Shown: piece by piece, positions 1,854 through 37,189 of the stretch | Layout: every line of letters begins with the position of its first letter | How positions within the stretch are numbered: position 1 is the first letter of the stretch | Source: Candidatus Zymogenaceae bacterium | GTDB taxonomy: Bacteria; Desulfobacterota; Zymogenia; Zymogenales; Zymogenaceae | Assembly (NCBI GenBank): GCA_016931225.1 | Contig: JAFGFE010000015.1 | Span: 66,858-119,002, forward strand | Length of the DNA stretch: 52,145 bases | Reading direction: 5' to 3' | Position numbers and translations under genes: made by a program | The notes under the pieces: model-generated | The model's database searches: none | Told to the model about the DNA's origin: nothing | What the model saw: only the letters and a program-made list of their open reading frames with translations

Positions 1854-3770
1854 ATGACAGGCATCAGTCTTATTGAAATAGCGTTTTTTACGTTCTGGAT
1901 CTGGACGTTGATGGATCTCATCAACCAGGAGGGTATTGAAGAACATCGCAAGGCCAGGATGACAACGTTCCATGCCTTTTTGGGCCTTATCGGCATCGCA
2001 TTCTATTTCTTTTTATTGATATCCGTCTTCGCCTCCGAGGAAGTACTCAACCTCAAGGTCAAGGGGGTTGTCGCTATTAATAAGGCCACATACCTCCAGA
2101 TTGCATATCATCTTCAGCCGGCGCTTGTCTTCGCGTTCGTCGTCATACTGCTCTTTCCGGTCGTTGCGGGTATCAACCTGATATTCAAGAAGAACCTAAA
2201 GGCGAAGCGATACATTACGGCGGCGAATGTCCTGGAGGGACTGGCGATACTTGGATCATTTATTTATATACTTTTTGTGACGTCGAGGCTTGAGGATATT
2301 AATTCTATAGGGCCTTTTATTTACAACGAATCAAATCTGACGCTTGTTAAAGGGATATTTTTTGGCATTGATTTCGATATTACCGCCATCAGTACGACAT
2401 TTTGCATTGTCTTTTATCTCTTCTCCTTCACAATTCTCCTCTGGGTCTTGGTTGCGCTCCATTATCTGCTCACCTTAAAGATCCCGATCAAGAAAAGGGA
2501 GGTCATCATCCTCAACACCGAGGAGGTGAAGAAGATCACCGAGATGGCGAGTATTTATAGAAGCTCCTTATACTTCCTCATACCGGCGGCGATTATCCTC
2601 TTTCGAGACGTCTGGGACATGCTGACAGGATTTCGCATCAAGGCCTTCTTTATTAATCTGATCTCACGGTCTTCGGCCTTGGGACAAGACATCCTGGATT
2701 TACATCTCAGCAAAAAGGTGTTTAAAAACCTGCTTGTCGGCAAGACCCCGGCCTCTCTCCTGGATCGACCGGACGTCATTGAGGCCCTCAGGTCCACCGC
2801 CGAAACAACGTCGTGGTTCCGAGTTCGTTTCGATGTGGCTGTCTATAAGTTTTTCGACAACTTCTTCAACGGTTCAATGGAAGGCGTCATCTCCGCTGGA
2901 TTCGTCATCGCGTGCATCCTGACGATATTCGCCCTGTTCATTACGGTCCTGATTACACGCATCAACAAGGATCTGGATGATATTCACGAAACCCACGAAG
3001 TGAATATGAACGGCGTCAAACACGCCCTGTACATGAATTCCTTTGACGCATGGCGGGTCTCCCTCTTCGCGGCGATCGTGACAATTACCCTGTTGAACGT
3101 ATTCGGAGCCAATGAATCCGGGATAAATTACTTTCATGGAACATTCAAATTTGTCCCGGACGGTATCGTTGTCACCTTCGAGGTAACGGTGGCGGCAATG
3201 ATCCTGTCTCTGATACTGGGACTGTTCGCAGGATTGGGAAAACTCTCCAGCAACGCCTTCATTAAGGGGATCGCGTCGGTATATATTGAAGTGATCCGGG
3301 GCGTACCGCTGTTGGTACAGTTGTTCTGGATTCATTTCGGGCTTGGGCGGGTGTTATTGAATCTTCCCGCCATGGGCTCCGCCATCTCGGCCATGGCCAT
3401 CTGCTACGGCGCTTACATGGGCGAGATATTCCGGGCCGGCATTCAGTCCATATCCCACGGACAGGTGGAGGCAGCGAAATCCCTGGGCATGACCAACTAC
3501 CAGACCATGCGTCAGGTCATTCTCCCCCAGGCCTTCAAGGTTATCCTGCCGCCGGTGGGCAACGAATTCATCGCGTTGTTGAAAGACTCGTCCCTGGTTT
3601 CCATTATCGCGGTAGGCGACCTGTTGAGGCGGGGTCGTGAATTTGTGGCGATCAATTTCAGTGCATTCCAAACATATACAATGGTGGCGCTGATATACCT
3701 GGTCATCACGCTGGTGCTTTCAAAGGTCGTTTGGAATATGGAAAAAATCATGGCCACGGAAAAGAAATAG
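1854..3770 (+). CDS. Amino-acid ABC transporter permease with long N-terminal membrane extension
   Basis: The 638-residue membrane protein ends in a HisM/GlnP-type permease domain, about residues 420-635. That domain carries the EAA loop ([20 protein letters not shown]) which contacts the ATPase. Ordinary permeases of this family have about 220 residues. Here roughly 400 residues precede the domain and contain about eight hydrophobic segments (near residues 7-20, 43-62, 85-108, 120-142, 180-208, 232-255, 343-368, 393-412) and a soluble stretch near 270-340. The family assignment of the C-terminal domain is firm; the extension has no function I can name. The gene lies between its binding protein and ATPase. 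The start at 1854 has only weak SD-like bases, but no better in-frame start is visible. Confidence 0.88.
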
Positions 3771-3793
3771 AGGCCGATCTCGAGGTATCCACT

Positions 3794-4528
3794 ATGGCAG
3801 AACCGATCATCAAGGTACGAAATATTTACAAAAATTTCGGTCATGTGCGGGCGCTCATCGACGTCAGCAACGACATCGACCCGGGTGAGGTGGTGGTTGT
3901 GTGCGGCCCCTCGGGCTCCGGTAAATCCACGTTTCTTCGCTGTCTGAACAAGCTCGAGGAAATCGATAAAGGGACGATCGCCATCGACGGAATGAACATA
4001 AACGATCCGGAGGTGAAAATACACAAGGTCAGGGAAGAGATCGGGATGGTCTTTCAACATTTCAATCTTTTTCCCCACAAAACAGTGATTGAAAACATCA
4101 CTCTGGCGCAAATCGTGGTCAGAAAACGTACCCCTGAGAATTCTCAAAAGATCGCCCAGGAGCTTCTGGAGAAGGTCGGCATCCATGAAAAGGCGGAGGC
4201 CTATCCCTCCCAGCTTTCCGGAGGCCAGCAGCAGCGGGTGGCCATCGCCCGGGCACTGGCCATGCAGCCGAAGATCATGCTGTTCGACGAGCCCACCTCC
4301 GCCCTGGATCCGGAGATGATCGGAGAGGTGCTGGAAGTGATGAAAACCCTCGCCAGGGAAGGGATGACAATGGTGGTGGTGACCCACGAGATGGGATTCG
4401 CGCGGGAAGTGTGTGATCGAATCATTTTTATGGACGAGGGGAGCATCGTCGAGGAGAACTCGCCCAAGGAGTTTTTCAACAATCCAAAAAGCGACAGGAC
4501 GAAGATTTTCCTGAGTCAGATTCTCTAG
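3794..4528 (+). CDS. Amino-acid ABC transporter ATP-binding protein (GlnQ type)
   Basis: This 244-residue cytoplasmic ATPase powers the transporter encoded by the preceding permease. It has Walker [10 protein letters not shown] near residue 37, the Q-loop in [12 protein letters not shown], the signature [16 protein letters not shown], Walker [15 protein letters not shown] and the switch His in [10 protein letters not shown]. This pattern is that of the polar amino acid uptake family (GlnQ/HisP/ArtP). The ATG at 3794 gives the expected [11 protein letters not shown] start. An upstream in-frame ATG inside the permease gene would add 21 unconserved residues. The gene starts 23 bases after the permease stop, within one operon. 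Confidence 0.95.
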
Positions 4529-4560
4529 CATCGAATAATGATAACTGAGATAGTGATCCA

Positions 4561-4599
4561 AACCGGTTGGGAGCGGCGAGTAGGCGCTTTCAACCGGTT
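4561..4599. repeat. Hairpin between the ATPase and second binding-protein genes
   Basis: AACCGGTTG at 4561-4569 pairs perfectly with CAACCGGTT at 4591-4599. The stem continues through two G-T pairs and AGCG/CGCT, giving about 15 pairs around a nine-base loop. No T-run follows, so it is not a standard terminator. It may protect or process the transcript, or bind a regulator because AACCGGTT is itself palindromic. Confidence 0.6.
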
Positions 4600-4658
4600 C
4601 ATGCGTGAGGGAGGGAAATACAATCATGGAGCCGGTGAGAGGGAAGAGAGGAGGTACC

Positions 4659-5582
4659 ATGCGGTTTGATACGATAAAAGACCAAAGGGGGAAAACATAT
4701 CGATATGAGGGGGAGACTCGCAACTTCGGTCTGGGATCTGTTGCGTGGGTGGTGATCATCGCTGTTCTCACCGCTCTGCTCTCGATGTCATGTTCAAACA
4801 ATGAAAACAATACCGTGACCGTCTCTCCGGACAGCTTGAGCGAGATGTCGACACTCAACACGATTCTGAAGCGTGGGAAACTGATCGTGGGTATGGATGT
4901 CTCCGATGTCCGGTATCAGCCCTTCGAAATGAAGAACGCGAACGGCGAGCTGATCGGATTCGACGTGGATCTGGCGCAGTTGATGGCCGATGAGCTCGGC
5001 GTAAGCCTCGAGATCGTGCAAACCGGGTGGGACGGTATCATACCCGCGCTGATAAACAGGAAGTTCGATGTGATCATCTCGGGGATGGGGGTAACCACCG
5101 AGCGAAATAAAGTCGTCAACTTTTCCGATCCATATTATTTATCGGGGAAGTGTCTGCTCATTCACATCAACAGCGCCGGCATTATCACCTCGTACAGGGA
5201 CCTGAACACCGAGGATATGGTCGTGGCAACGGCGTTCTACAGCGATATGGCCCTTGATCGATACATCCCGAACGCCAGCGTCATACGATACGCCTCCGAT
5301 GAAGAGGCGGTGATGGATGTCATAGAGGGAAATTCTGATGCGTATATCGCCGATAAGGCGCGGGTCGCTATTTACGCCAGAAGCTATCCGGACAATACTC
5401 TGGCGCTCCTGACGCCCTTCACATATGAACCCATAGCGATCGGTGTTCGAAAGGGCGATCCGGATTTTCTCAACTGGATTAACAACTTTATCAGGATCAT
5501 CAACGGAGACGGACGACTCGCGATGCTGGAACAGAAGTGGATGGTCGATTACGTATACACAACCGACTGGGACCTGGAATAG
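4659..5582 (+). CDS. Second amino-acid ABC transporter substrate-binding protein
   Basis: This 307-residue family 3 solute-binding protein shows LIVGMDVSDVRYQPFEMKN, ELIGFDVDLAQLMADELG and GMGVTTERNKVVNFSDPYY, the usual blocks of the amino-acid-binding fold. It resembles the protein at 950 in architecture but not closely in sequence. The N-terminus is odd: about 28 polar residues precede a hydrophobic segment (residues 28-44) that ends in SMSC, a poor lipobox. It could be a membrane-anchored protein or a lipoprotein with a long n-region. The start at 4659 is chosen because GAGGAGGT lies directly upstream; two earlier in-frame ATGs lack such a site. It follows the transporter ATPase by 130 bases and probably serves the same permease with another ligand. 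Confidence 0.88.
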   Translation: MRFDTIKDQRGKTYRYEGETRNFGLGSVAWVVIIAVLTALLSMSCSNNENNTVTVSPDSLSEMSTLNTILKRGKLIVGMDVSDVRYQPFEMKNANGELIGFDVDLAQLMADELGVSLEIVQTGWDGIIPALINRKFDVIISGMGVTTERNKVVNFSDPYYLSGKCLLIHINSAGIITSYRDLNTEDMVVATAFYSDMALDRYIPNASVIRYASDEEAVMDVIEGNSDAYIADKARVAIYARSYPDNTLALLTPFTYEPIAIGVRKGDPDFLNWINNFIRIINGDGRLAMLEQKWMVDYVYTTDWDLE

Positions 5583-5725
5583 CGACACCCGCCGAAACCG
5601 ACTCTATACGGGGAATGTGGGCTTCTGTCGGTCATGAAATCCGGCGAAAAAAACGTGATAAAATAATAAAAAATGCGGCGTAAAGAGATAATTTTTTCCA
5701 AATCGGCGCCGTGGGGAGTGTAAAC

Positions 5726-11696: not shown

Positions 11697-12980
11697 ATGA
11701 AACGTATTTCCTTTGTCATAGCATCAATATGTATCGCTTGTGTTGCGATGTGTGTTTTCGGTTGTGGACCGGACGTATCTCCGGAAACCATCGCGTTGTA
11801 TGATCAGGCGGAGATGTATTACGAAACGATGATGTACGATGAGGCCATCGCATCATATACCTCCGTTATAGATGAGGAACCGTCATTCGCCCTGGCGTAT
11901 CTGGGAAGGGGGAAAACCCTTACCGCCATGGGGAGATTCGATGAAGGAGTGAGGGATTTCAGCGTGGCGATGGATCTTGAGCCGAAAAACGATGAGGTTC
12001 TTGCCACCGTCGCCATGGCGTATATTGAGCGAAATCTTCAGGATGAGGGGCTTATCATTCTTGAAAAGGCGGAAGAACAGAACCCCCTTAATCCCACGAT
12101 ACACCTTGCGAGGGGCCTGTACCATGTAAAAAATCTGGAATACTCGAAGGCGATCGAGGAATACCTGAAGGCGACGAAGAGGGACAAGGCAGCGAAAGAG
12201 GCATATATACGCATCAGCGGCATCTATTGTTGCGCCGAGAATCCCATGTATCGTAATGACGACCTCGCCCTGGATTATGCGGGAAAAGCGCTGGAAATCG
12301 CACCGGACGACCCAGCGGCCCTCGACGCACTGGCATACGTGTATTATTCCAGGGGAGATATGGAAAAGGCCATAGAATACGAGACGAAAGCACTGGAAAT
12401 GCTGCCGGAAAACCGCACACTGACGGAACATCTGATGCTGTTTAAGGGGACGGTTGCAGAGACGGCGGAGGAACGTAACAACAGGGGGGCGGAGCTCCTG
12501 CTGGAGGGAAATTATTCGGAGGCGGCGGATGAGTTTCGGACGGCCATCGAGATCGATCCGAATTATTCCGATGCGTATTACAACCTGGGGAAAGTATATT
12601 CCCACCTGGAGGACTACAGCTCGGCGGAGGAATACTACATCACGGCGATTGAGATCGATCCGGATGACGCCCGCTATCACTATAATCTTGCCATTGTGTA
12701 CGGAAAGATGGAAATGCTCGATAAGAGCGAAGAGGAATACCTCTACGCAATCAGCATAGATCCATTTTATGATAAGGCTCATAATAATCTGGGCGCACTG
12801 TATGTCAAAACGGGAAAGCTCGAACAGGCCCTGGCGGAATTCACCTACGCATACGAGATAAACCAAAAAGGCACCTATAAGGCGAATATAGATATGGTCA
12901 GGGAAATGCTGGGAGAAGACGCCCCCGTTTCCACGAATTCACCGACTGGCGCATCCGAGACGGATATGCTACAATACTGA
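11697..12980 (+). CDS. TPR-repeat lipoprotein
   Basis: This 427-residue lipoprotein has a signal peptide ending in VFGC (Cys23), followed by back-to-back tetratricopeptide repeats through about residue 395. Repeats with typical endings include SFALAYLGRGKTLTAMGRFD, NYSDAYYNLGKVYSHLEDY, DDARYHYNLAIVYGKMEM and FYDKAHNNLGALYVKTGKL. TPR arrays bind other proteins; an anchored periplasmic TPR protein usually acts as a scaffold in an envelope complex. The next gene, 42 bases downstream, encodes a DUF4388-receiver protein, and a second TPR/DUF4388 pair occurs at 32.7-35.8 kb. Partners cannot be told from sequence alone. Confidence 0.88.
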   Translation: MKRISFVIASICIACVAMCVFGCGPDVSPETIALYDQAEMYYETMMYDEAIASYTSVIDEEPSFALAYLGRGKTLTAMGRFDEGVRDFSVAMDLEPKNDEVLATVAMAYIERNLQDEGLIILEKAEEQNPLNPTIHLARGLYHVKNLEYSKAIEEYLKATKRDKAAKEAYIRISGIYCCAENPMYRNDDLALDYAGKALEIAPDDPAALDALAYVYYSRGDMEKAIEYETKALEMLPENRTLTEHLMLFKGTVAETAEERNNRGAELLLEGNYSEAADEFRTAIEIDPNYSDAYYNLGKVYSHLEDYSSAEEYYITAIEIDPDDARYHYNLAIVYGKMEMLDKSEEEYLYAISIDPFYDKAHNNLGALYVKTGKLEQALAEFTYAYEINQKGTYKANIDMVREMLGEDAPVSTNSPTGASETDMLQY

Positions 12981-13022
12981 GTAATTCGACGAATATCGGA
13001 TGTGTTGCGGGAGGTTCATTGC

Positions 13023-13994
13023 ATGGACAGTTTAGAGGGAAAAGTCCCACAGATTGAGGGTAATTTCACCGCTCTTTCACTGGTAAGTCTCATCCAGGGT
13101 ATATCGAACAACAAGAAGATGTTGATCACTCTCTATTCTCTGGATGGAGGGGAGGGGAGACTGTACTTCGATAACTCGCGGATTGTCGGCGCTTTCGTCG
13201 GCGATAATCTTGTGGGACGAAAAGCTTTTTTTCGCATGATCGAGTGGGAAGACGCCCGCTTCCAGGCGTATGATATCAACAACATTAATCCGAAAATGCA
13301 GAACATCAACCTGGAAGTGTCACATCTTCTTCTCGAGGGCCTTCGACAAAAAGATGAAAAGAACAAGATAAAAGAGAAGGTTGCTCCCATCTATAAAATA
13401 AAACGGAGCGAAGGTTCCTTTGAACTTGATGAAAACGAGAAACAGATGTGGGAGAGCCTGCCGGAAGACGGGATATTCGTAAATAGTCTTGTCAACCAAT
13501 CGTCTATGACCGATTGGGAGGCGTATAATGTACTTTCCTCCCTCATGAAAAAACGCGCCCTGGTGTTTATGCGCCTGAAGACGCTGGTGGTGGATGACAG
13601 TGAATTTATGATCAAGATTATAAAGGATATTCTGGAAAAGATATACAAGAACATGATGATCATAAAGACCTTCACCAACGGCGCGGACGCAATCAAGCTT
13701 ATCTCATCTTCTGATCCTCGAAATCGTCCCGACCTTGTACTCACCGATATCATGATGGAGGGAACAAGCGGGATGGAGGTCATCAAGGCGGCCAGAAACG
13801 CCCAGCCTCCGGTCAATATCATCGCCGTAACGTCCCTCCAGAGAGAGATGAAGGATATCCTTGAATCCGGTGCGAATTATCTCCACAAGAACTGGATAAC
13901 CAAGGATAATATCGGTGATATCATGAAGGACCTCATCGAGCAGACCATCTGTGGAGAATTATGGGTCATCGGCGGCGAGGGTGAAAAAACATAA
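13023..13994 (+). CDS. DUF4388 (PATAN-like) protein with C-terminal response-regulator receiver
   Basis: This 323-residue protein begins with a DUF4388 domain (about residues 1-100: EGNFTALSLVSLIQGISNN, then GRLYFDNSRIVGAFVGDNLV). A winged-helix-like linker follows (about 120-185). The C-terminal receiver domain (about 187-310) has LVVDDSE as acidic pocket, the phosphoacceptor Asp242 in LVLTDIMM, Thr in IIAVTS and Lys in LHKNW. DUF4388 domains are found in PatA-type regulators in cyanobacteria and many delta-type bacteria, but their partners are largely unknown. The ATG at 13023 is selected by GGAGGTT six bases upstream. No cognate kinase is adjacent. The likely role is phosphorylation-controlled protein interaction, perhaps with the TPR lipoprotein operon. 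Confidence 0.85.
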   Translation: MDSLEGKVPQIEGNFTALSLVSLIQGISNNKKMLITLYSLDGGEGRLYFDNSRIVGAFVGDNLVGRKAFFRMIEWEDARFQAYDINNINPKMQNINLEVSHLLLEGLRQKDEKNKIKEKVAPIYKIKRSEGSFELDENEKQMWESLPEDGIFVNSLVNQSSMTDWEAYNVLSSLMKKRALVFMRLKTLVVDDSEFMIKIIKDILEKIYKNMMIIKTFTNGADAIKLISSSDPRNRPDLVLTDIMMEGTSGMEVIKAARNAQPPVNIIAVTSLQREMKDILESGANYLHKNWITKDNIGDIMKDLIEQTICGELWVIGGEGEKT

Positions 13995-14009: not shown

Positions 14010-14570
14010 ATGAAAGTCCCGCCGAGATCCGATCGGTTTCATAATCAGCTCCGCGATTCATTTCATCCGGCCCGCATTATTGCCGAAGTTTCCATCCTGA
14101 GCGCGCTGTACGTTGCGCTGACACTGCTTCTGGCTCCCGTTTCATACGGACCCATTCAGTTTCGCGTCAGCGAGGCCCTTGTCATTCTTGTGGCAACGAG
14201 AAGACACCTTCTTCTCTTCGTCCCCATCAGTTGTTGTATCGCAAATCTCTTCTCACCCTACGCGGGCCCCTGGGATCTGATTTTCATGCCTCTGGTCAGC
14301 ATGATCGGTGCGCTGCCGATGTATATCCTCAGGACGCGTTGGCTCCTCTTCTCCTCGTGGGCATATGCCTTCATCACCGCCGTCGGCGTGGGAATCATGC
14401 TGTCGGTTCTTGTTGAAAAGGGGTTTTTGGTCATGTTCGGGCCGGTCCTGGCGAGTCAGTTGATTATCATGACAATCGCGTTTTTCGTATTTAGGGGCTA
14501 TCTTCTGGCCGCGGTGAGAAAGAAACCACACGACGGTACGAACGGCGGGAGAGAAGAAAAAAACGGGTGA
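14010..14570 (+). CDS. QueT-like transporter (ECF-type S component)
   Basis: This 186-residue membrane protein has about five to six hydrophobic segments and the sequence ALTLLLAPVSYGPIQFRVSE, a strong signature of the QueT family. These are substrate-capture components of energy-coupling-factor transporters predicted to import queuosine precursors. A positively charged N-terminus and a hydrophilic C-terminal tail flank the core. It begins 15 bases after the DUF4388-receiver gene, but no queuosine gene, EcfA/EcfT gene or preQ1 riboswitch is visible nearby. The substrate is therefore an inference from the family name only. It is convergent with purC. Confidence 0.8.
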   Translation: MKVPPRSDRFHNQLRDSFHPARIIAEVSILSALYVALTLLLAPVSYGPIQFRVSEALVILVATRRHLLLFVPISCCIANLFSPYAGPWDLIFMPLVSMIGALPMYILRTRWLLFSSWAYAFITAVGVGIMLSVLVEKGFLVMFGPVLASQLIIMTIAFFVFRGYLLAAVRKKPHDGTNGGREEKNG

Positions 14571-29342: not shown

Positions 29343-31719
29343 CGATGATTTGTTCCTTTGGTTTTTCCTCCACCCAGGTTTCCCGAATAACCGGTTCGGG
29401 ATAATCGATCCGCTGGTGGAAAATGCCCGTGAGCACTTGGGTGAAACTGCGGGTGATGGCGTCCAGGTCCTTCAGGGTCAGTTCACACTGGTCGAGCTGT
29501 CCGTCAAGAAAGATACGGTCGATAATGTTTTGAACCATGGATTCAATGCGGGCGGGTTTTGGGTCGGACAGCACCTTGGATGCCGCCTCCACGTTATCGG
29601 CCAACAACACAATGCCCGCCTCCCGGGTCTGGGGTTTCGGGCCGGGATATCGAAAATTCTTCTCCTCGACGGTCATCCCCTTGGTGGTCTCAGCCATCTC
29701 CAGGGCCTTCTGGTGAAAGAAGGAAATCAGGTGCGTGCCGTGGTGCTGCATGATGATGTCGATGATCTCCTGTCCCAGCCTGTAGCGTCTCGCCAGGTCG
29801 ACGCCGTCCTTGACGTGGGATATCAGGATCAACGCCGACATGTGCGGCGTGAGACGATCGTGGGGATTGTTGCCGTCAGTGATATTTTCGATAAAATAAT
29901 TCGGTTTCTTGATTTTCCCGATATCATGATAATAGGAGCTGACGCGGGCGAGAAGCGGATTCGATCCGATGGCGGTGGCTGCGGCTTCGGCCAGATTGCC
30001 GACGATGATGCTGTGATGATACGTGCCGGGCGCTCGGATCACCATCTCCTTCAGCAGTGGATGTTCAAGGTTTGAGAGCTCCACAAGCTTGATGTCGGTC
30101 GTATATCGGAAGAGCAGCTCCACCAGCGGCGTAATGCCAAGAACCACCACAGACGAGATAATACCAGCCGAGAAGCCGAAAATTATATTGGAAACCATCG
30201 TTTTGGTGTCGGTGGTGATAGTCGTCAGTATGTCCTGAGAGAGCAGGTTGAGCCTGCTTATATAAATGGATACGATCGTCAACACGTTTATCATGCCGAC
30301 CATGAGGCCCGCGTACACGATGGTCGAGCGCTGTTTCGTCTGGGCGACAAGGTGCGCACCGATGAGTGAGCCGATAAAAATGAACACTGAGAAGAATATA
30401 TCCCCCCCCACCATGATACCGGTGAAGATGCTGGAGAGAACTGCGTATATAACTGCCGATTCGGAATTGATGACGATGCGAACGAGCATGGCCCCCGCCA
30501 CGATCGGCAGGATAAACTTGTATGCAGGCTCTGGAATGAGGATGAATTCGTCGACCAGGGCGTCTTTCAGGAAAAGGAATATCTTGGTGAAGGCGCTGAA
30601 GAGAAGCAGAGTCAACCCGATGAAGAGGAAATCCTTGTTGCGAAGGGTAAGCTTCTTGATGTTCCGGACGGAAAAGACATACACCGCATACGTCATAATG
30701 ATAATGAGCAGGAGAATGCCCTGGTAGGCAAAGTAGATATTGTAGTCGCTTTCCGACTCGATTATCGCGTCGAGTATGGTGACGTGACGCTTCTCCACCT
30801 TTTCACCGTCACGGATGATCATCTCTCCCTTGTTTATGGAGATCATCACCGGTTTCACGCTTTCCCGGGCTGAATTTCGGCGATTTTCCGTTTCGGTTGG
30901 ATTGTAGGTCACGTTCGGTTTGATGAGGATCTGCGAGAAATCCACCGCTACGGCCAAAACAGCACGAGACGCATTCGGAGCGGACGTCGATGCGTTTTCG
31001 GCGATGATATCCCGGGCGTCGTTCAGATTGACGACGTGGTCTGTCGAGGCAAGAATTGTTTCGGCTTTGGTCTGGCTGTTGATGAGGACGATATTGGTAT
31101 TGACGATGTCTTCGATAATCTGGGTGTACGATTCGACGATATACAATCCATAGAGGTTTTCAAGTAATAATTTGACCGACTCTTCGATATCCGTGTCAAA
31201 CTCGGCATCCGCAAGTCTCAAGAAGACATCGTCGGGGACATCCACACCGATAAGCTCATTGAACAGATGTCGATTCTGCATGAACCATTCGCGGGTGGTG
31301 ATGTTTTCCGGCTTCTTGCCGCCAAGATCCCTCATATGTTTGAACGAGGAATCGATTCGGTCAAACAGGGATACGAGGCTCGTGACGTCCGCATCATAAA
31401 CCGGATATACTTCTTTTGCGGCCTCGGTCTGTTTTTGTTCGGTGGCGTCCTTATCGACGATGAGGTAATCACGAGTCGCCTTGATGTCCTTCGTGGCAAA
31501 ATCACCGACGGTGTAGGTTACAGTTGTTATCTTGTTTTGAGGCGCCAGGATGAAAGACATGATGACCACGAACGATACAAACAGAAGCACTCGTTGTATC
31601 TTCGGATTCCTATATGTCTGCCCATCAATGACAAAGGTGAGAGGACGTGTGAATCGATTCGAAAAGAGAGATCGATACAGCTTGAGATATATATTATGAA
31701 CGGTGTTAAAAAACTTCAT
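29305..31719 (-). CDS. HD-domain cyclic-di-AMP phosphodiesterase, PgpH/YqfF type
   Basis: This protein of about 804 residues has an N-terminal helix (about 43-61), a 7TMR-HDED extracytoplasmic domain (to about 310), seven membrane helices (about 315-545) and a C-terminal HD domain. The HD motif is visible as APGTYHHSIIVGNLAEA and SYYHDIGKIKKPNYF, with further metal ligands in LISHVKDGVDLA and IMQHHGTHLISFF. In Firmicutes, PgpH hydrolyses the second messenger c-di-AMP; the same activity is inferred here. I choose the ATG at 31719 (MKFFNTVHNIY). The frame stays open 29 codons further, but those are Ser/Lys-rich and overlap phoH. It overlaps phoH by 14 bases. Confidence 0.9.
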   Translation of the reverse strand: MKFFNTVHNIYLKLYRSLFSNRFTRPLTFVIDGQTYRNPKIQRVLLFVSFVVIMSFILAPQNKITTVTYTVGDFATKDIKATRDYLIVDKDATEQKQTEAAKEVYPVYDADVTSLVSLFDRIDSSFKHMRDLGGKKPENITTREWFMQNRHLFNELIGVDVPDDVFLRLADAEFDTDIEESVKLLLENLYGLYIVESYTQIIEDIVNTNIVLINSQTKAETILASTDHVVNLNDARDIIAENASTSAPNASRAVLAVAVDFSQILIKPNVTYNPTETENRRNSARESVKPVMISINKGEMIIRDGEKVEKRHVTILDAIIESESDYNIYFAYQGILLLIIIMTYAVYVFSVRNIKKLTLRNKDFLFIGLTLLLFSAFTKIFLFLKDALVDEFILIPEPAYKFILPIVAGAMLVRIVINSESAVIYAVLSSIFTGIMVGGDIFFSVFIFIGSLIGAHLVAQTKQRSTIVYAGLMVGMINVLTIVSIYISRLNLLSQDILTTITTDTKTMVSNIIFGFSAGIISSVVVLGITPLVELLFRYTTDIKLVELSNLEHPLLKEMVIRAPGTYHHSIIVGNLAEAAATAIGSNPLLARVSSYYHDIGKIKKPNYFIENITDGNNPHDRLTPHMSALILISHVKDGVDLARRYRLGQEIIDIIMQHHGTHLISFFHQKALEMAETTKGMTVEEKNFRYPGPKPQTREAGIVLLADNVEAASKVLSDPKPARIESMVQNIIDRIFLDGQLDQCELTLKDLDAITRSFTQVLTGIFHQRIDYPEPVIRETWVEEKPKEQIIGDSAYSNRGSTH

Positions 31720-32698
31720 TGCTGTTTTCCGGTTCCCGCTGTCTTTGCTGATTGTCGATTTCGTACGCCTTGATGATTTCCCGGACGAGCCTGTGTCTGA
31801 CGACATCGGTTTCGCTAAAGTAGGAAAACTGTATCCCCTCGATCGAAGAGAGGATGCGGCGTGCCTCGACCAGCCCGGACACCTTTCCGTACGGAAGGTC
31901 TATCTGCGTGATGTCTCCGGTGATAACGGTCTTTGAGTTGAATCCAAGACGAGTCAGAAACATCTTCATCTGCTCGCTGGTTGTATTTTGCGCTTCGTCA
32001 AGAATAATAAACGAATCATTGAGCGTTCGACCCCTCATAAAAGCCAAAGGCGCCACCTCAATAATCCCCTTGTGAACGAAGCGCTCCGCTTTTTCAATAT
32101 CCATCATATCATGAAGCGCGTCATAGAGCGGCCTCAAGTATGGATTGATCTTCTCATTGATGTCTCCGGGGAGAAATCCGAGCTTCTCTCCCGCCTCTAC
32201 GGCGGGTCGTGTTAAGATAACACGATCGACCTTACCTTTATTAATATAATCCATGGCCATTGCCATTGCAAGGTATGTCTTGCCGGTGCCGGCGGGACCG
32301 ATACCGAATACGATATCGTTTTTTCTAATGTCTTCGATATATTTTTTTTGGGCAAGGCTTTTCGGTGCTATGTTCCGATTCTTGGCGGATATATAGATAG
32401 TATCGAGGAATATATCATGCAGCTTCACCTTCCGGTTGGATTTTATTATTCTGAGGGCGAAGTCTACATCCTGAGCATATATCGGGTATCCCTTTTTAAT
32501 GAGTTCTGAGAGTTGTGTGAGGACATCCTGAGCTATCTTCACATCATCGGACATCCCGGTAATGGTGACGCTGTTTCCCCGGGTGTCGATGCTGGTGTGT
32601 GTATCCTTTTCGACAATGGCAAGATGCGCGTTATGCTCTCCAAAAAGCGTACGCGCAAGGTTATTGTCGTCAAATTCTATTTTTACGGTGTTGCTCAA
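31706..32698 (-). CDS. PhoH family ATPase
   Basis: This 330-residue protein has a KH-like N-terminal part (residues 1-110) and a P-loop ATPase domain with FGIGPAGTGKTYLAMAMAM (Walker A), ILTRPAVEAGEKLGFLPGD (PhoH block) and FIILDEAQNTTSEQMKMFLT (Walker B), plus TVITGDITQIDLP. PhoH-like proteins are predicted RNA helicases or chaperones and in many genomes travel with YbeY, as here. It starts four bases after the DUF4388 gene stop, and its 3' end overlaps pgpH. Confidence 0.94.
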   Translation of the reverse strand: MSNTVKIEFDDNNLARTLFGEHNAHLAIVEKDTHTSIDTRGNSVTITGMSDDVKIAQDVLTQLSELIKKGYPIYAQDVDFALRIIKSNRKVKLHDIFLDTIYISAKNRNIAPKSLAQKKYIEDIRKNDIVFGIGPAGTGKTYLAMAMAMDYINKGKVDRVILTRPAVEAGEKLGFLPGDINEKINPYLRPLYDALHDMMDIEKAERFVHKGIIEVAPLAFMRGRTLNDSFIILDEAQNTTSEQMKMFLTRLGFNSKTVITGDITQIDLPYGKVSGLVEARRILSSIEGIQFSYFSETDVVRHRLVREIIKAYEIDNQQRQREPENSNEVF

Positions 32699-32702
32699 AC
32701 GG

Positions 32703-33851
32703 TTATTCCTTGACTATAAGAGAATACCCGCTGCCGGTGAGAGTGTATTCAAAGCGATCTTTCCAGTCGTAACGGACGTTTTCCACGTATCCGTTTGTAT
32801 ACAGCTGCTGGAGATTTTCAGGATAGCTTGAATGGATGAAATAATAAATTTCAATTGCTGATTCTATGTTGGCACGTTCCATATTAAGCTGGGATTGGTT
32901 GAATAAAGTAGTATTGGAGGGTGATATAGTGAAATTAGATTTGATCCGTGGATATGCAATAAAGAGATACCCAACAAGAATGATGACAAAAACGGCGACA
33001 GCCAGATAGGAAGAGACATTCTTGACAGAAATATCTTGAGAGGTTGTGATTCTTTCTTCCTCAAGTTCATATCCGACGTCAATCAGCCTTTTTGATATGA
33101 GCATGGACAGAGCCTTGAGGGTTTCAAATTCCCCGATTCTGCCGATATTGATTATCTCCGAGACGGACCGCTCGCCGTCTATAAGATCGAATATCCGCTT
33201 TTCGCTTGAGTTGAGTATTCTTTCGGAAGGGTCAGGTTCATCACTATCGAAAAACAGATCATCCTCATCTTCATCACGATCCTGGACTCTCCAGAATTTG
33301 ATTTCATCTTCAGCCCCGGGCATCTTTTCAAAAACGATGTTTTTTGAATATACTTTTTTCCTGATTTCCGGCAGTTCGTCGGTCATCCGCAGACTGTCCA
33401 TCAGGAAGTGCTCTGTATTTATGGGGCTCGTTGTCTTTTTGTTGTATGTGACTATTCTCTGGTGGAAGTTATACGTTCCGCTTTTCCACATCAGGAGCTT
33501 GAAAATGGTCTCATGGGTCTGGAGCTTAAGAAAGTGGCGCAACTCTTCCAGGGTAATATATCCCTGCTCGATAAGGATATCGCCAAGCTTCTTGAGAGTT
33601 TCTCTTTGAATTTCAAGTGTGCGGAGCAATTGTGTCTTGGTGATGAGGTCCGCCTTCAACAGCATCTCTCCGAGGTACTCGTTTATATTTCTGATAGAAG
33701 ACGTGGCGGATATGATCATGCCGTTGTCAAAGAGGACTTGTACCTGTTTGCTTTTATCGGCGAGAGTCAGTACGCCGCTTTTTTGTTGTTGGTAGAGCAG
33801 TTGAAGAATATCGACAACCGACAGATCTTTTATATCTCCCTGTAGGGCCAC
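32703..33851 (-). CDS. DUF4388 protein with membrane helix and pseudopilin-like C-terminus
   Basis: The 382-residue protein starts with a DUF4388 domain (residues 1-95: MALQGDIKDLSVVDILQLLY, SGVLTLADKSKQVQVLFDNG). A second DUF4388-associated helical part follows (LGDILIEQGYITLEELRHFL, ETIFKLLMWKSGTYNFH), then an acidic linker rich in Asp, Glu and Ser (about 190-225) and a winged-helix-like segment (ILNSSEKRIFDLIDGERSVS). One transmembrane helix lies near residues 283-303. The outside part ends with IESAIEIYYFIHSSYPENLQ and DWKDRFEYTLTGSGYSL, which looks like the globular part of a GspG/type IV pseudopilin. The cytoplasmic-sensor-plus-pilin arrangement is unusual. It lies between a TPR membrane protein and phoH. 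Confidence 0.72.
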   Translation of the reverse strand: MALQGDIKDLSVVDILQLLYQQQKSGVLTLADKSKQVQVLFDNGMIISATSSIRNINEYLGEMLLKADLITKTQLLRTLEIQRETLKKLGDILIEQGYITLEELRHFLKLQTHETIFKLLMWKSGTYNFHQRIVTYNKKTTSPINTEHFLMDSLRMTDELPEIRKKVYSKNIVFEKMPGAEDEIKFWRVQDRDEDEDDLFFDSDEPDPSERILNSSEKRIFDLIDGERSVSEIINIGRIGEFETLKALSMLISKRLIDVGYELEEERITTSQDISVKNVSSYLAVAVFVIILVGYLFIAYPRIKSNFTISPSNTTLFNQSQLNMERANIESAIEIYYFIHSSYPENLQQLYTNGYVENVRYDWKDRFEYTLTGSGYSLIVKE

Positions 33852-33863
33852 GCTGATCTCCTG

Positions 33864-35828
33864 TTATGTCAATCGTTCCGATACAAAAAAGTCTCTCTGC
33901 GCGATAATATACACAATGATCAGTAAAATGAAATAGAGGAAAAAGTTATGAATGATAGGAAATCCCGCCGCGTGCATCGGATATACAATAATCCCATCAA
34001 TGTACACGATATTTATCACGCAGAAAATATAGAGCAGCAGGAAAATAAAACCCTTTATCGTATATCCTCGAAATATCGATCCAAATCCCGGGAGGAGCAG
34101 GTTTATAATCCGGAGCACGATTCTGATGACGTTTCTTTTCCGTTCCACTCTCATACGAAGATCGGCCTTGGTCTTCGGGTCGACACCCTCCCGGCGGATA
34201 AACACTGAGAAACACCGATTACATGAATCACGTTTATCCATGTGAGTCAGGGATTTCAACAGAAAGGGCTCCCAACAATACTTACAGGCCTTGGAGAATA
34301 CATACCGGTTTCTTAACGTGGCGAATATAAAAAGCAGTGCAAGGATGAATACACTAATACCCGATGTGAGACGAAACGTAACCCCCTTCATCAGGTCGGC
34401 CCATATGGAGGCCGAGATGGTCTTGGCGCTCGAGGAAGAGAGGATTCTGCCCCAGAAGACCGTGTCGGAAATGTAGCGATCCATGACGACTCGATTGACG
34501 CGATCAAGATATGTCAGTGTGTCCTCACTGCCCCTGGCCTCCCTGTCGACAAAACTGTTTATCAGATCTGGAGAAAGCTCATCAGCCTTCTCTCGATATT
34601 CCTCCGCCTTATATATGTCAAATTCATCTCCGGATATGCTCCGCTTGTACAGATTGTAATACGTCGTCGCCGAATTGGAGTCGATGTCCAAGGACTTGAG
34701 GTAGTACACTTCCGCCCTATCGTATTCACCGAGAATGAAATATATATTGCCCAGATTATTGAGTGCCAGCGGATGATTCGGCTCGATTTTAAGGGTTTCC
34801 AGGTAGTATTTCTCCGCAAGTTTTAGCTCACCCCGCTTTTTGTTCATCAGACCGAGGGTAAACAGCACATCGGTATCGTCAGGATGATTCAGGTTCCAGA
34901 CTTTCAACTCCTTTTCGACCATATCGGAGTATGTGTCTTCCCTGACGGAGATCATCTCGTCGATGACCTGCTGATGCGTGGAGAGCATCATTGTTGCGGT
35001 GTTGTTCATCAGGATGGGTGAAATAACCAAAAGAACATAAAACACGGCGGAAAGATACCGTTCCGTTTTTGTGTAGTATATGGACAATGTGAGGGTCATA
35101 AAAATGATTGTCCAGATGATTCCCAGGTTGAGGGACGCGAATATAACCAACAAAAGGATGATAAAGAGGATGAAAAGCCACAATGACACGTCCCAATCGA
35201 GGAACACCTTGATATCGTTGGCCGCCAGCGGGATGTATTTCACCGCAAGGATAACAGCGAGGAGTGCGAACGAGATCAGCAGGGTGATGAGGATCATCAA
35301 CATGAGATTTGCGATCAGTGTTGTGAATATCGTTGTGTCGGCCAGTGAATGAGAAATGCCCAGAATATAGAAGTTTATGATATTAAAAATCTTCGACGGC
35401 GTGTGTCGCCAGGTGAACTCCGCCAAGGCGAAATATACGCTCGGTTTGTTGGGTGAAAAGGTTTCTGCCTTGTGAAGGAGCATTTCGGCGTTTGATAGAT
35501 CCCCCGAATTTTCAAGCATTTCGGACAGATGAATCAACGCGAAAGAGTATTCGGGTATATTTCGGTCACTCTGGCGATATTTAATCGAGGTAAATGAATC
35601 AAGGATATTATTTGCTTTTACTCTGTTATTGTCCTTCATCGCCTCCATAAACTGAAACCAAATGTCATCGTAGCTGAGCGTGGGAGGTGTCTCGGACACG
35701 GGAGGGGTGGAAGGAGCGTCATCGGCGGTCGAATTGTCCTGGGAGACGACGGAAAGTGGAGATAGAAGAAGTACAACAAGAAATGCAATGAGAACGGTGC
35801 ATCCTCTTTTAAGAAACCGAAATTGCAC
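33864..35828 (-). CDS. TPR membrane protein with zinc-ribbon-like motif
   Basis: This protein of about 654 residues has a signal peptide (residues 8-28, likely cut near VVSQ) and a helical N-terminal TPR-like part. A membrane block of four to five helices lies at about 165-290. Clear TPRs at about 315-410 include DVLFTLGLMNKKRGELKLAE and HPLALNNLGNIYFILGEYDR. Another helix follows near 485-505, then CKYCWEPFLLKSLTHMDKRD and SCNRCF, a pair of CxxC knuckles, and two last helices. The GTG at 35828 is chosen because GGAG lies six bases upstream; an ATG at 35867 is the alternative. It is followed after 12 bases by the DUF4388/pilin-like gene. Function is unknown, possibly assembly of an envelope complex. 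Confidence 0.7.
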   Translation of the reverse strand: MQFRFLKRGCTVLIAFLVVLLLSPLSVVSQDNSTADDAPSTPPVSETPPTLSYDDIWFQFMEAMKDNNRVKANNILDSFTSIKYRQSDRNIPEYSFALIHLSEMLENSGDLSNAEMLLHKAETFSPNKPSVYFALAEFTWRHTPSKIFNIINFYILGISHSLADTTIFTTLIANLMLMILITLLISFALLAVILAVKYIPLAANDIKVFLDWDVSLWLFILFIILLLVIFASLNLGIIWTIIFMTLTLSIYYTKTERYLSAVFYVLLVISPILMNNTATMMLSTHQQVIDEMISVREDTYSDMVEKELKVWNLNHPDDTDVLFTLGLMNKKRGELKLAEKYYLETLKIEPNHPLALNNLGNIYFILGEYDRAEVYYLKSLDIDSNSATTYYNLYKRSISGDEFDIYKAEEYREKADELSPDLINSFVDREARGSEDTLTYLDRVNRVVMDRYISDTVFWGRILSSSSAKTISASIWADLMKGVTFRLTSGISVFILALLFIFATLRNRYVFSKACKYCWEPFLLKSLTHMDKRDSCNRCFSVFIRREGVDPKTKADLRMRVERKRNVIRIVLRIINLLLPGFGSIFRGYTIKGFIFLLLYIFCVINIVYIDGIIVYPMHAAGFPIIHNFFLYFILLIIVYIIAQRDFFVSERLT

Positions 35829-35962
35829 GTAATTCTCCAAAAAAAAATTGTTACTAAAATGTAGCATATGGCTATAGGAAAAGCAATAGTAATGTTTTTT
35901 ACCTTGCCATTTTCCAACAACTGTTTTATTTTCGAAAAGTTACGTATTCGAAGAGAGCACAC

Positions 35963-36748: not shown

Positions 36749-36859
36749 CGTATCGGTAACGCGCTCAGTACGCAAGCAGCTTTTTCCGAGAGGAGAGGGG
36801 AAACGGTATACGACACCGGCGATGATACTTTACGTCCGCTCAAAATGGAGAAGACACGT

Positions 36860-37189
36860 ATGAACAAGCGATTCCTCTCTCCGATAATATCCGGATTAAT
36901 CTATCCAGGAGCGGGACAACTTCTGAACGGTCACCACTTAAAAGGATGGACCATTATCACAATCACATCCCTCAACCTGGTCTTTCTGATCTTTTTTATA
37001 TTCAAGGGGTTTATAACGGTCATAAAAAATATTTCCGCTCCTTTCGGGAGCATGTGGGAATTTATTGCGGCCTCTCTCGCCATGAATGGGAGGCATGAAC
37101 TGGTTCTCTTGATCGTGTTGTTTGCATTATGGATATATGCAATCGTAGACGCTCATATCGGCGCTCCTCCGGAAAAATCGACCGTGTGA
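36860..37189 (+). CDS. Small membrane protein with PGxGxxxxGxxxKG motif
   Basis: This 109-residue protein has three hydrophobic segments (about residues 4-15, 28-50, 75-98). The N-terminal motif YPGAGQLLNGHHLKGW resembles the PGxGqxyxGxxxkG motif of TM2/DUF5683-like proteins. The C-terminal membrane part of the TPR protein (LLLPGFGSIFRGYTIKGFIF) carries the same motif. The ATG at 36860 is used because GGAG lies nine bases upstream; an ATG five codons earlier is possible. No function can be assigned. Confidence 0.65.
   Translation: MNKRFLSPIISGLIYPGAGQLLNGHHLKGWTIITITSLNLVFLIFFIFKGFITVIKNISAPFGSMWEFIAASLAMNGRHELVLLIVLFALWIYAIVDAHIGAPPEKSTV

Follow-up and report, generated by a model that had tools for sequence, protein, structure and literature searches.

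We propose that two adjacent genes in the window (the whole 52,145-nucleotide stretch of DNA that we analysed) encode a conserved two-protein inner-membrane signalling unit, which would connect c-di-GMP or MglA to an envelope machine, and that a second pair of similar genes in the window is a separate family-level operon. We put the probability of this reading at about 0.5. The two proteins are T, a TPR membrane protein, and D, a DUF4388 protein; we refer to this pair as pair 2 and to the unit as T-D. T and D are orthologous families that lie next to each other, in the same order, across the phylum Desulfobacterota. We take DUF4388 (PF14332) to be the PATAN domain, as the domain architecture suggests. 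In the open-access PMC papers that we searched, the T-D unit appears to be undescribed.

Two TPR-DUF4388 gene pairs in the window

An earlier note on this DNA reported that a TPR gene lies directly upstream of a DUF4388 gene twice, and both pairs are present. In pair 1, at 11.7-14.0 kb, the gene for a TPR lipoprotein is followed by the gene for a DUF4388-receiver protein; the reported gap of 42 bases holds if the second protein starts at ATG 13023, and the gap is 21 bases if it starts at GTG 13002. Pair 2 is on the other strand, with T first and D (described in the note as DUF4388-pilin-like) 12 bases behind it. The features of the window that we refer to are:

11697..12980, + strand: TPR lipoprotein of pair 1, 427 aa, with an N-terminal ...CVFGC lipobox (ORF and Pfam)
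13002..13994, + strand: PATAN(DUF4388)-receiver protein of pair 1, starting at GTG 13002 or ATG 13023
14010..14570, + strand: queT (PF06177), the downstream neighbour that is kept with pair 1 in three genera
33864..35867, - strand: T, polytopic TPR membrane protein, 667 aa, first gene of T-D
35403..35672, - strand: first TPR-like region of T, aa 66-155, probably periplasmic (helical pairs in the AF2 model; acid-rich loop behind the signal peptide)
34983..35336, - strand: membrane helix cluster of T, aa 178-295 (AF2 model and hydropathy)
34530..34973, - strand: second TPR region of T, aa 299-446, probably periplasmic (Pfam TPR_1 and structure matches)
34212..34286, - strand: zinc-ribbon-like CxxC...CxxC motif of T, aa 528-552, probably cytosolic (invariant Cys)
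32703..33851, - strand: D, DUF4388(PATAN)-MshEN-winged helix-TM-pseudopilin-like protein, 382 aa, second gene of T-D
33375..33842, - strand: DUF4388 domain of D, aa 4-159, insertion included (PF14332, 108 bits)
33519..33677, - strand: predicted MshEN c-di-GMP motif of D, about aa 59-111, inserted in DUF4388 (NF053729, 54.5 bits)
33063..33359, - strand: winged-helix-like domain of D, aa 165-263 (VIA-align and weak MarR/TrmB matches)
32955..33026, - strand: single transmembrane helix of D, aa 276-299 (helix in the AF2 model; hydropathy of relatives)
32712..32921, - strand: GspG-like (pseudopilin) tail of D, aa 311-380, predicted to be periplasmic (PF08334 T2SSG and AF2 model)
31706..32698, - strand: phoH (PF02562), directly downstream of D in the window's family; context, outside the T-D unit

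T and D stay together while their context changes

T-D is present in 43 of 118 sampled Desulfobacterota genomes. A DUF4388 gene is found in 74 of the 118, and these include all of the genomes with T: 43/43 genomes with T have a DUF4388 gene, as compared to 31/75 without T (p about 3e-12, not corrected for kinship). When T and D were searched for separately in 39 relatives, they had neighbouring coordinates wherever the match to T was strong, except for one case at a contig end. Scanning named genomes with the alignment of D alone gave 22 strong D loci in the lineage, with T directly upstream in 22/22, and D was adjacent to T in all of eight further T loci. Across 16 families, the adjacency and the order held at every locus examined where the contig allowed the check, and the measured loci had gaps of -1 to 63 bases.

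The surroundings of T-D vary. It lies before phoH in four families (f1, f12, f27, and f31), between guaB and guaA in three (f8, f11, and f13), and directly after mglA in five (f9, f19, f32, f34, and f42). (Except for mglA, neighbours outside the window were named from their sequences by eye.) As the two genes stay paired in changing contexts, T and D themselves should be functionally linked, and we consider this link to be strongly supported. The earlier note had suggested such a link for both of its pairs; it stands for pair 2, which is adjacent in 16 families and in several contexts, and for pair 1 it comes down to co-regulation at most, as the predicted compartments of the two proteins differ.

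TPR genes are not generally paired with DUF4388 genes

The source genome has nine DUF4388 genes, and only those of pairs 1 and 2 have a TPR gene directly upstream. By our own count there are about 47 distinct TPR frames in the genome. With an estimated 3,300 genes this is ~1.4%, and about 0.13 DUF4388 genes preceded by TPR genes would be expected, where two are seen (Poisson probability about 0.008, an estimate). Conservation is stronger evidence for the pairs than this chance estimate.

We also compared the upstream genes of DUF4388 genes to the background, as the earlier note had proposed, and the comparison went against a general pairing. We fetched the top 100 DUF4388 genes from a score-ordered list for the phylum, in which strong DUF4388 matches are over-represented. 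T-D accounts for 21 of these best 100. For 56 of the remaining 79, there is an upstream gene on the same strand at most 300 bases away, and a Pfam scan of those 56 upstream genes found no TPR family that was matched by at least two of them, so at most 1/56 is a TPR gene. The families seen among the 56 were receiver, GGDEF, EngA, and T2SSE. The background rate of TPR genes among nearby genes was 3/405. (TPR genes among the neighbours were detected with a consensus profile and Pfam.) We therefore reject a general TPR-DUF4388 rule in this phylum. Pair 1 is not a paralogue of pair 2 either: a TPR lipoprotein and a PATAN-receiver protein stand against a polytopic CxxC/CxxC protein and a PATAN-MshEN-TM-pseudopilin protein, and the compartments differ. 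The two pairs are not examples of a single rule.

These results bear on two simpler explanations. If TPR and DUF4388 proteins were a general functional class, any neighbouring pair could belong to one system; the two pairs in one window fit this, as does a TPR gene that overlaps a DUF4388-MshEN gene in one Gemmatimonadaceae genome. However, the low rate of TPR genes close upstream of other DUF4388 genes, and the lack of a common subfamily or compartment for the two pairs, make this explanation very unlikely, and it is largely refuted in this phylum. The T-D pairing could also be due to chance or neutral operon inertia, since genes of both kinds are common here and pair 1 alone would be unsurprising in number. 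But the T-D adjacency is kept across the 16 families and their several contexts, none of the 22 strong loci that were fetched by D alone is without T, and the control rate for nearby TPR genes is just 3/405, so we regard this explanation as extremely improbable.

Several other arrangements of DUF4388 genes were seen. In Gemmatimonadaceae (L121, the sole genome outside the phylum that was looked at here), the gene for a 904-aa TPR protein (1859-4573) overlaps the start of a DUF4388-MshEN gene (4573-5718) whose product itself ends in TPR repeats; this pair is without T's CxxC/CxxC motif. In three families, a DUF4388 gene is directly 3' of a gene for the GTPase EngA/Der, on the same strand (L142, L146, and L174), and in two families DUF4388 genes are directly 3' of a gene for a T2SSE-type (PilT-like) ATPase (L194, L222, and L226). 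On contig C18 of the source genome (L239:6048-6989, L002:2154-2522), a receiver-DUF4388 gene is followed by a gene that looks like roadblock/LC7 (MglB-like).

Pair 1 is a family-level operon

Pair 1 is conserved in three genera of one family, while pair 2 extends across the phylum; both pairs are thus conserved in relatives. The order of TPR lipoprotein, PATAN-receiver, and queT is kept in two other genera of Zymogenaceae (L071 and L072). The PATAN-receiver proteins of these genera are 73% identical to that of the window, and the orthologues of the lipoprotein, in the same position in G001 and G002, are 50% identical. The PATAN-receiver protein matches PF14332 at 53.9 bits (the cut-off is 25) and PF00072 at 59.7 bits, and its sequence keeps the Asp/Thr/Lys acceptor positions of the receiver. 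Because a lipoprotein and a cytosolic regulator are predicted to be in different compartments, direct contact is unlikely, and the lipoprotein is probably co-regulated with the PATAN-receiver protein rather than bound by it.

The cyanobacterial PATAN-CheY regulators PixE, PixG, and LsiR (PMC7690835, PMC12288463) combine PATAN with a receiver as the pair 1 protein does; here, the protein is coupled to a TPR lipoprotein and queT. In contrast to these regulators, D has no receiver domain.

Distant paralogues of the PATAN-receiver protein have neighbours other than those of pair 1. One of them, 53% identical to the pair 1 protein, is on contig C38 of the same genome (L234:9543-10586, - strand), between two minor-pilin clusters (PilX_N, N_methyl) and with a second small receiver-like gene downstream. 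Another distant paralogue, in G002, is behind a CoA-ligase-like gene.

Two TPR regions and a CxxC/CxxC motif in the inner-membrane protein T

From its N-terminus, T has a signal-peptide-like start, a TPR-like region, four membrane helices, a canonical TPR region, a membrane helix, the CxxC/CxxC motif, and two more membrane helices (AF2 model, pLDDT 79.8). The second TPR region has structural matches to consensus TPRs, with an rmsd of about 2 Å over 119-135 columns. Cys528, Cys531, Cys549, and Cys552 are invariant in all aligned members of the orthologue family, and the CxxC/CxxC motif is found in every Desulfobacterota T that was compared; the sequence suggests that it is zinc-ribbon-like. The large loops of T are acid-rich and the small ones are rich in Lys/Arg, so both TPR regions are probably periplasmic and the CxxC/CxxC domain is probably cytosolic, a topology read from hydropathy and charge only.

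We considered whether the first TPR region of T is lost together with the pseudopilin-like tail of D. This looked strong by profile score, but both are physically absent only in family f32: the stretch is diverged but present in f27, f45, and f21, and in f9 and f42 it is kept while the tail of D is absent. We therefore draw no conclusion from such a co-loss. Near T, on the + strand (36845-37189), the window also encodes a small membrane protein with a PGxG membrane motif that resembles the C-terminal part of T. Its counterpart in L100 (6552-6932) has a weak score with the profile of T.

D combines a PATAN domain, a predicted c-di-GMP motif, and a pseudopilin-like tail

D matches PF14332 at 108 bits (the cut-off is 25) and NF053729, which describes the MshE-type c-di-GMP motif, at 54.5 bits (the cut-off is 38). 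The MshEN part, which is found in 18/18 aligned members of D, is made up of a pair of 24-residue motifs, separated by a 5-residue spacer, and is inserted in DUF4388; it may be the "alpha-helical insertion" of Makarova 2006. In the alignment of D, invariant positions include Gly3, Leu21, and Gln24 in motif I, as well as Gly3 and Gln24 in motif II. The matches of this part to sequences in the PDB are MshE, PilB, and PilF, and the corresponding part of the AF2 model of D (pLDDT 78.8, pTM 0.55) aligns to c-di-GMP-bound MshE (5htl) with Z 6.5 and an rmsd of 2.3, and to PilF with Z 6.2 (VIA-align).

The MshEN domains of MshE, PilB, and PilF (PMC5013675) and that of D are alike in the two 24-residue motifs, the exact 5-residue spacer, and most of the contact residues. 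They differ in that MshEN precedes an ATPase in those proteins and is inside PATAN in D, where the first Arg of both motifs is replaced: position 1 is Y and K in the D of the window and is mostly not Arg in its relatives. In MshE, the arginines at this position (R9 and R38) stack on guanine (PMC5013675). As the guanine-stacking Arg is absent from both motifs in most D, the MshEN part of D is a predicted c-di-GMP-binding motif whose binding is not assured.

The winged helix of D is similar to the winged-helix parts of GATOR1/SEAC (Z 8-10, VIA-align), which is a common fold, and has weak matches to MarR/TrmB. The PATAN part gave Z 5 to the Vibrio protein 2p6y (VIA-align), which is too weak to use. 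A Foldseek search with the whole model of D had no match at E < 0.001, which is unsurprising for a model of several domains with a pTM of 0.55.

The tail of D matches PF08334 (T2SSG) in 11/18 members, with a best E-value of 4e-5, and is a helix and a beta hairpin in the AF2 model. It has the C-terminal helix, the YP..L..L motif, and the beta hairpin in common with GspG. Unlike GspG, D is without the N-terminal methylation motif (class III signal; there was no N_methyl match in D), and its tail follows a cytosolic sensor and a transmembrane helix in one fused protein, so D cannot be an ordinary processed pilin. The tail has been lost in several clades in which T and D are still paired.

A link to mglA in some lineages

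The gene directly upstream of T in the five families listed above encodes MglA (8e-66 to a solved MglA); mglA is not adjacent to T-D in the window's family. The contact residues of MshEN are degenerate (at most 6/10) in 11/13 of the D next to mglA, as compared to 2/~39 elsewhere. This inverse relation has a p of about 1e-7 by locus and is thin by clade (3/4 vs. 1/11, p 0.03). In the tree of T, the rows linked to mglA are in four clades; its deep branches have little resolution, and the tree does not distinguish repeated gain of the link from repeated loss. In family f32 (L023:2-559, L213:5964-6500), a further TPR gene lies before mglA, giving the order TPR-mglA-T-D.

Published surveys report mglA and mglB genes near PATAN genes (PMC4316618), and co-occurrence of PATAN proteins with SgmX has been described for Myxococcales (PMC11580455). 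The Bdellovibrio hub of MglA, Bd2492, RomR, and CdgA (PMC3983030) and MglA-SgmX of Myxococcus (PMC7519303, PMC11580455) also combine MglA, a TPR protein, and a c-di-GMP receptor-like protein, and several T-D lineages have mglA directly upstream of T. However, no signal sequence is predicted for Bd2492 or for its counterpart in Myxococcus (PMC3983030), whereas T is a polytopic membrane protein with CxxC/CxxC. If TPR proteins of the MglA/SgmX type are those without a signal sequence, then T, with its N-terminal hydrophobic segment and several membrane helices, is not one of them. T-D also differs from these sets in having its c-di-GMP motif within a PATAN protein with a pseudopilin-like tail.

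Proposed mechanism and alternatives

T-D is likely to transmit a signal from inside the cell, a small messenger molecule or a molecular switch, across the inner membrane. We infer that T and D form a complex, along with its topology, its c-di-GMP/MglA input, and its envelope output. D would sense cytosolic c-di-GMP via the MshEN motif that is inserted in PATAN; where the operon includes mglA, MglA-GTP may replace this input or add to it. The change would be passed via the transmembrane helix of D and the cytosolic CxxC/CxxC domain of T to the periplasmic side, where the pseudopilin-like tail of D would meet the TPR repeats of T and adjust an envelope machine. The most plausible candidates for this machine are type IV pilus or pseudopilus-type systems, which we consider putative. 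A bolder version is that T-D is an undescribed transmembrane relay that keeps a pseudopilin-like domain permanently attached to a sensor of c-di-GMP in the cytosol, with the input having switched to the small GTPase MglA in several lineages and the membrane output having been kept; we think that this version is rather improbable.

A pilus output is one candidate. In cyanobacteria, the pilus motor is a target of PATAN-CheY proteins, which bind PilB1 (PMC7690835, PMC12288463). T-D is found in 35/85 genomes with a strong PilM and in 8/33 without (p 0.09), which is a weak association, and three genomes of family f13 (drafts, 92-95% complete) have T-D and no PilM match. A strict dependence of T-D on pili is therefore not supported. 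T-D might instead be a regulator that is specific to type IV pilus assembly and controlled by c-di-GMP or MglA, as the membrane counterpart of the myxobacterial MglA/TPR(SgmX)/PATAN sets. The mglA-T-D operons in five families, the origin of both the pseudopilin-like tail and MshEN in pilus/T2SS machinery, and published links between PATAN and pili (PMC11580455, PMC7690835, PMC7519303) point this way. However, besides the PilM results, we recognised no pil genes in the T-D neighbourhoods that we read, and T is polytopic, whereas no signal sequence is predicted for Bd2492 and the Myxococcus protein, so we consider a pilus-specific regulator to be unlikely. Nor do we favour the converse direction of signalling, in which T-D would be a sensor of envelope quality or growth state, unrelated to filaments, that reports on the periplasm inward and has the winged helix and PATAN of D as its output. 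Housekeeping neighbours (guaB, guaA, dnaE, and phoH) in many families would fit such a sensor, and so would the clades that lost the tail of D and kept the pairing, but it has no known output partner and the conservation of MshEN argues for a signal that enters from the cytosol; we view it as doubtful.

PATAN (DUF4388) domains are widespread, and what is known of their roles comes largely from cyanobacteria. T-D brings PATAN together with a predicted c-di-GMP motif and a pseudopilin-like tail, adds a TPR membrane partner of its own and sometimes mglA, and does so phylum-wide. It offers a concrete and testable system for how PATAN domains may link the cell envelope to second messengers and to Ras-like GTPases.
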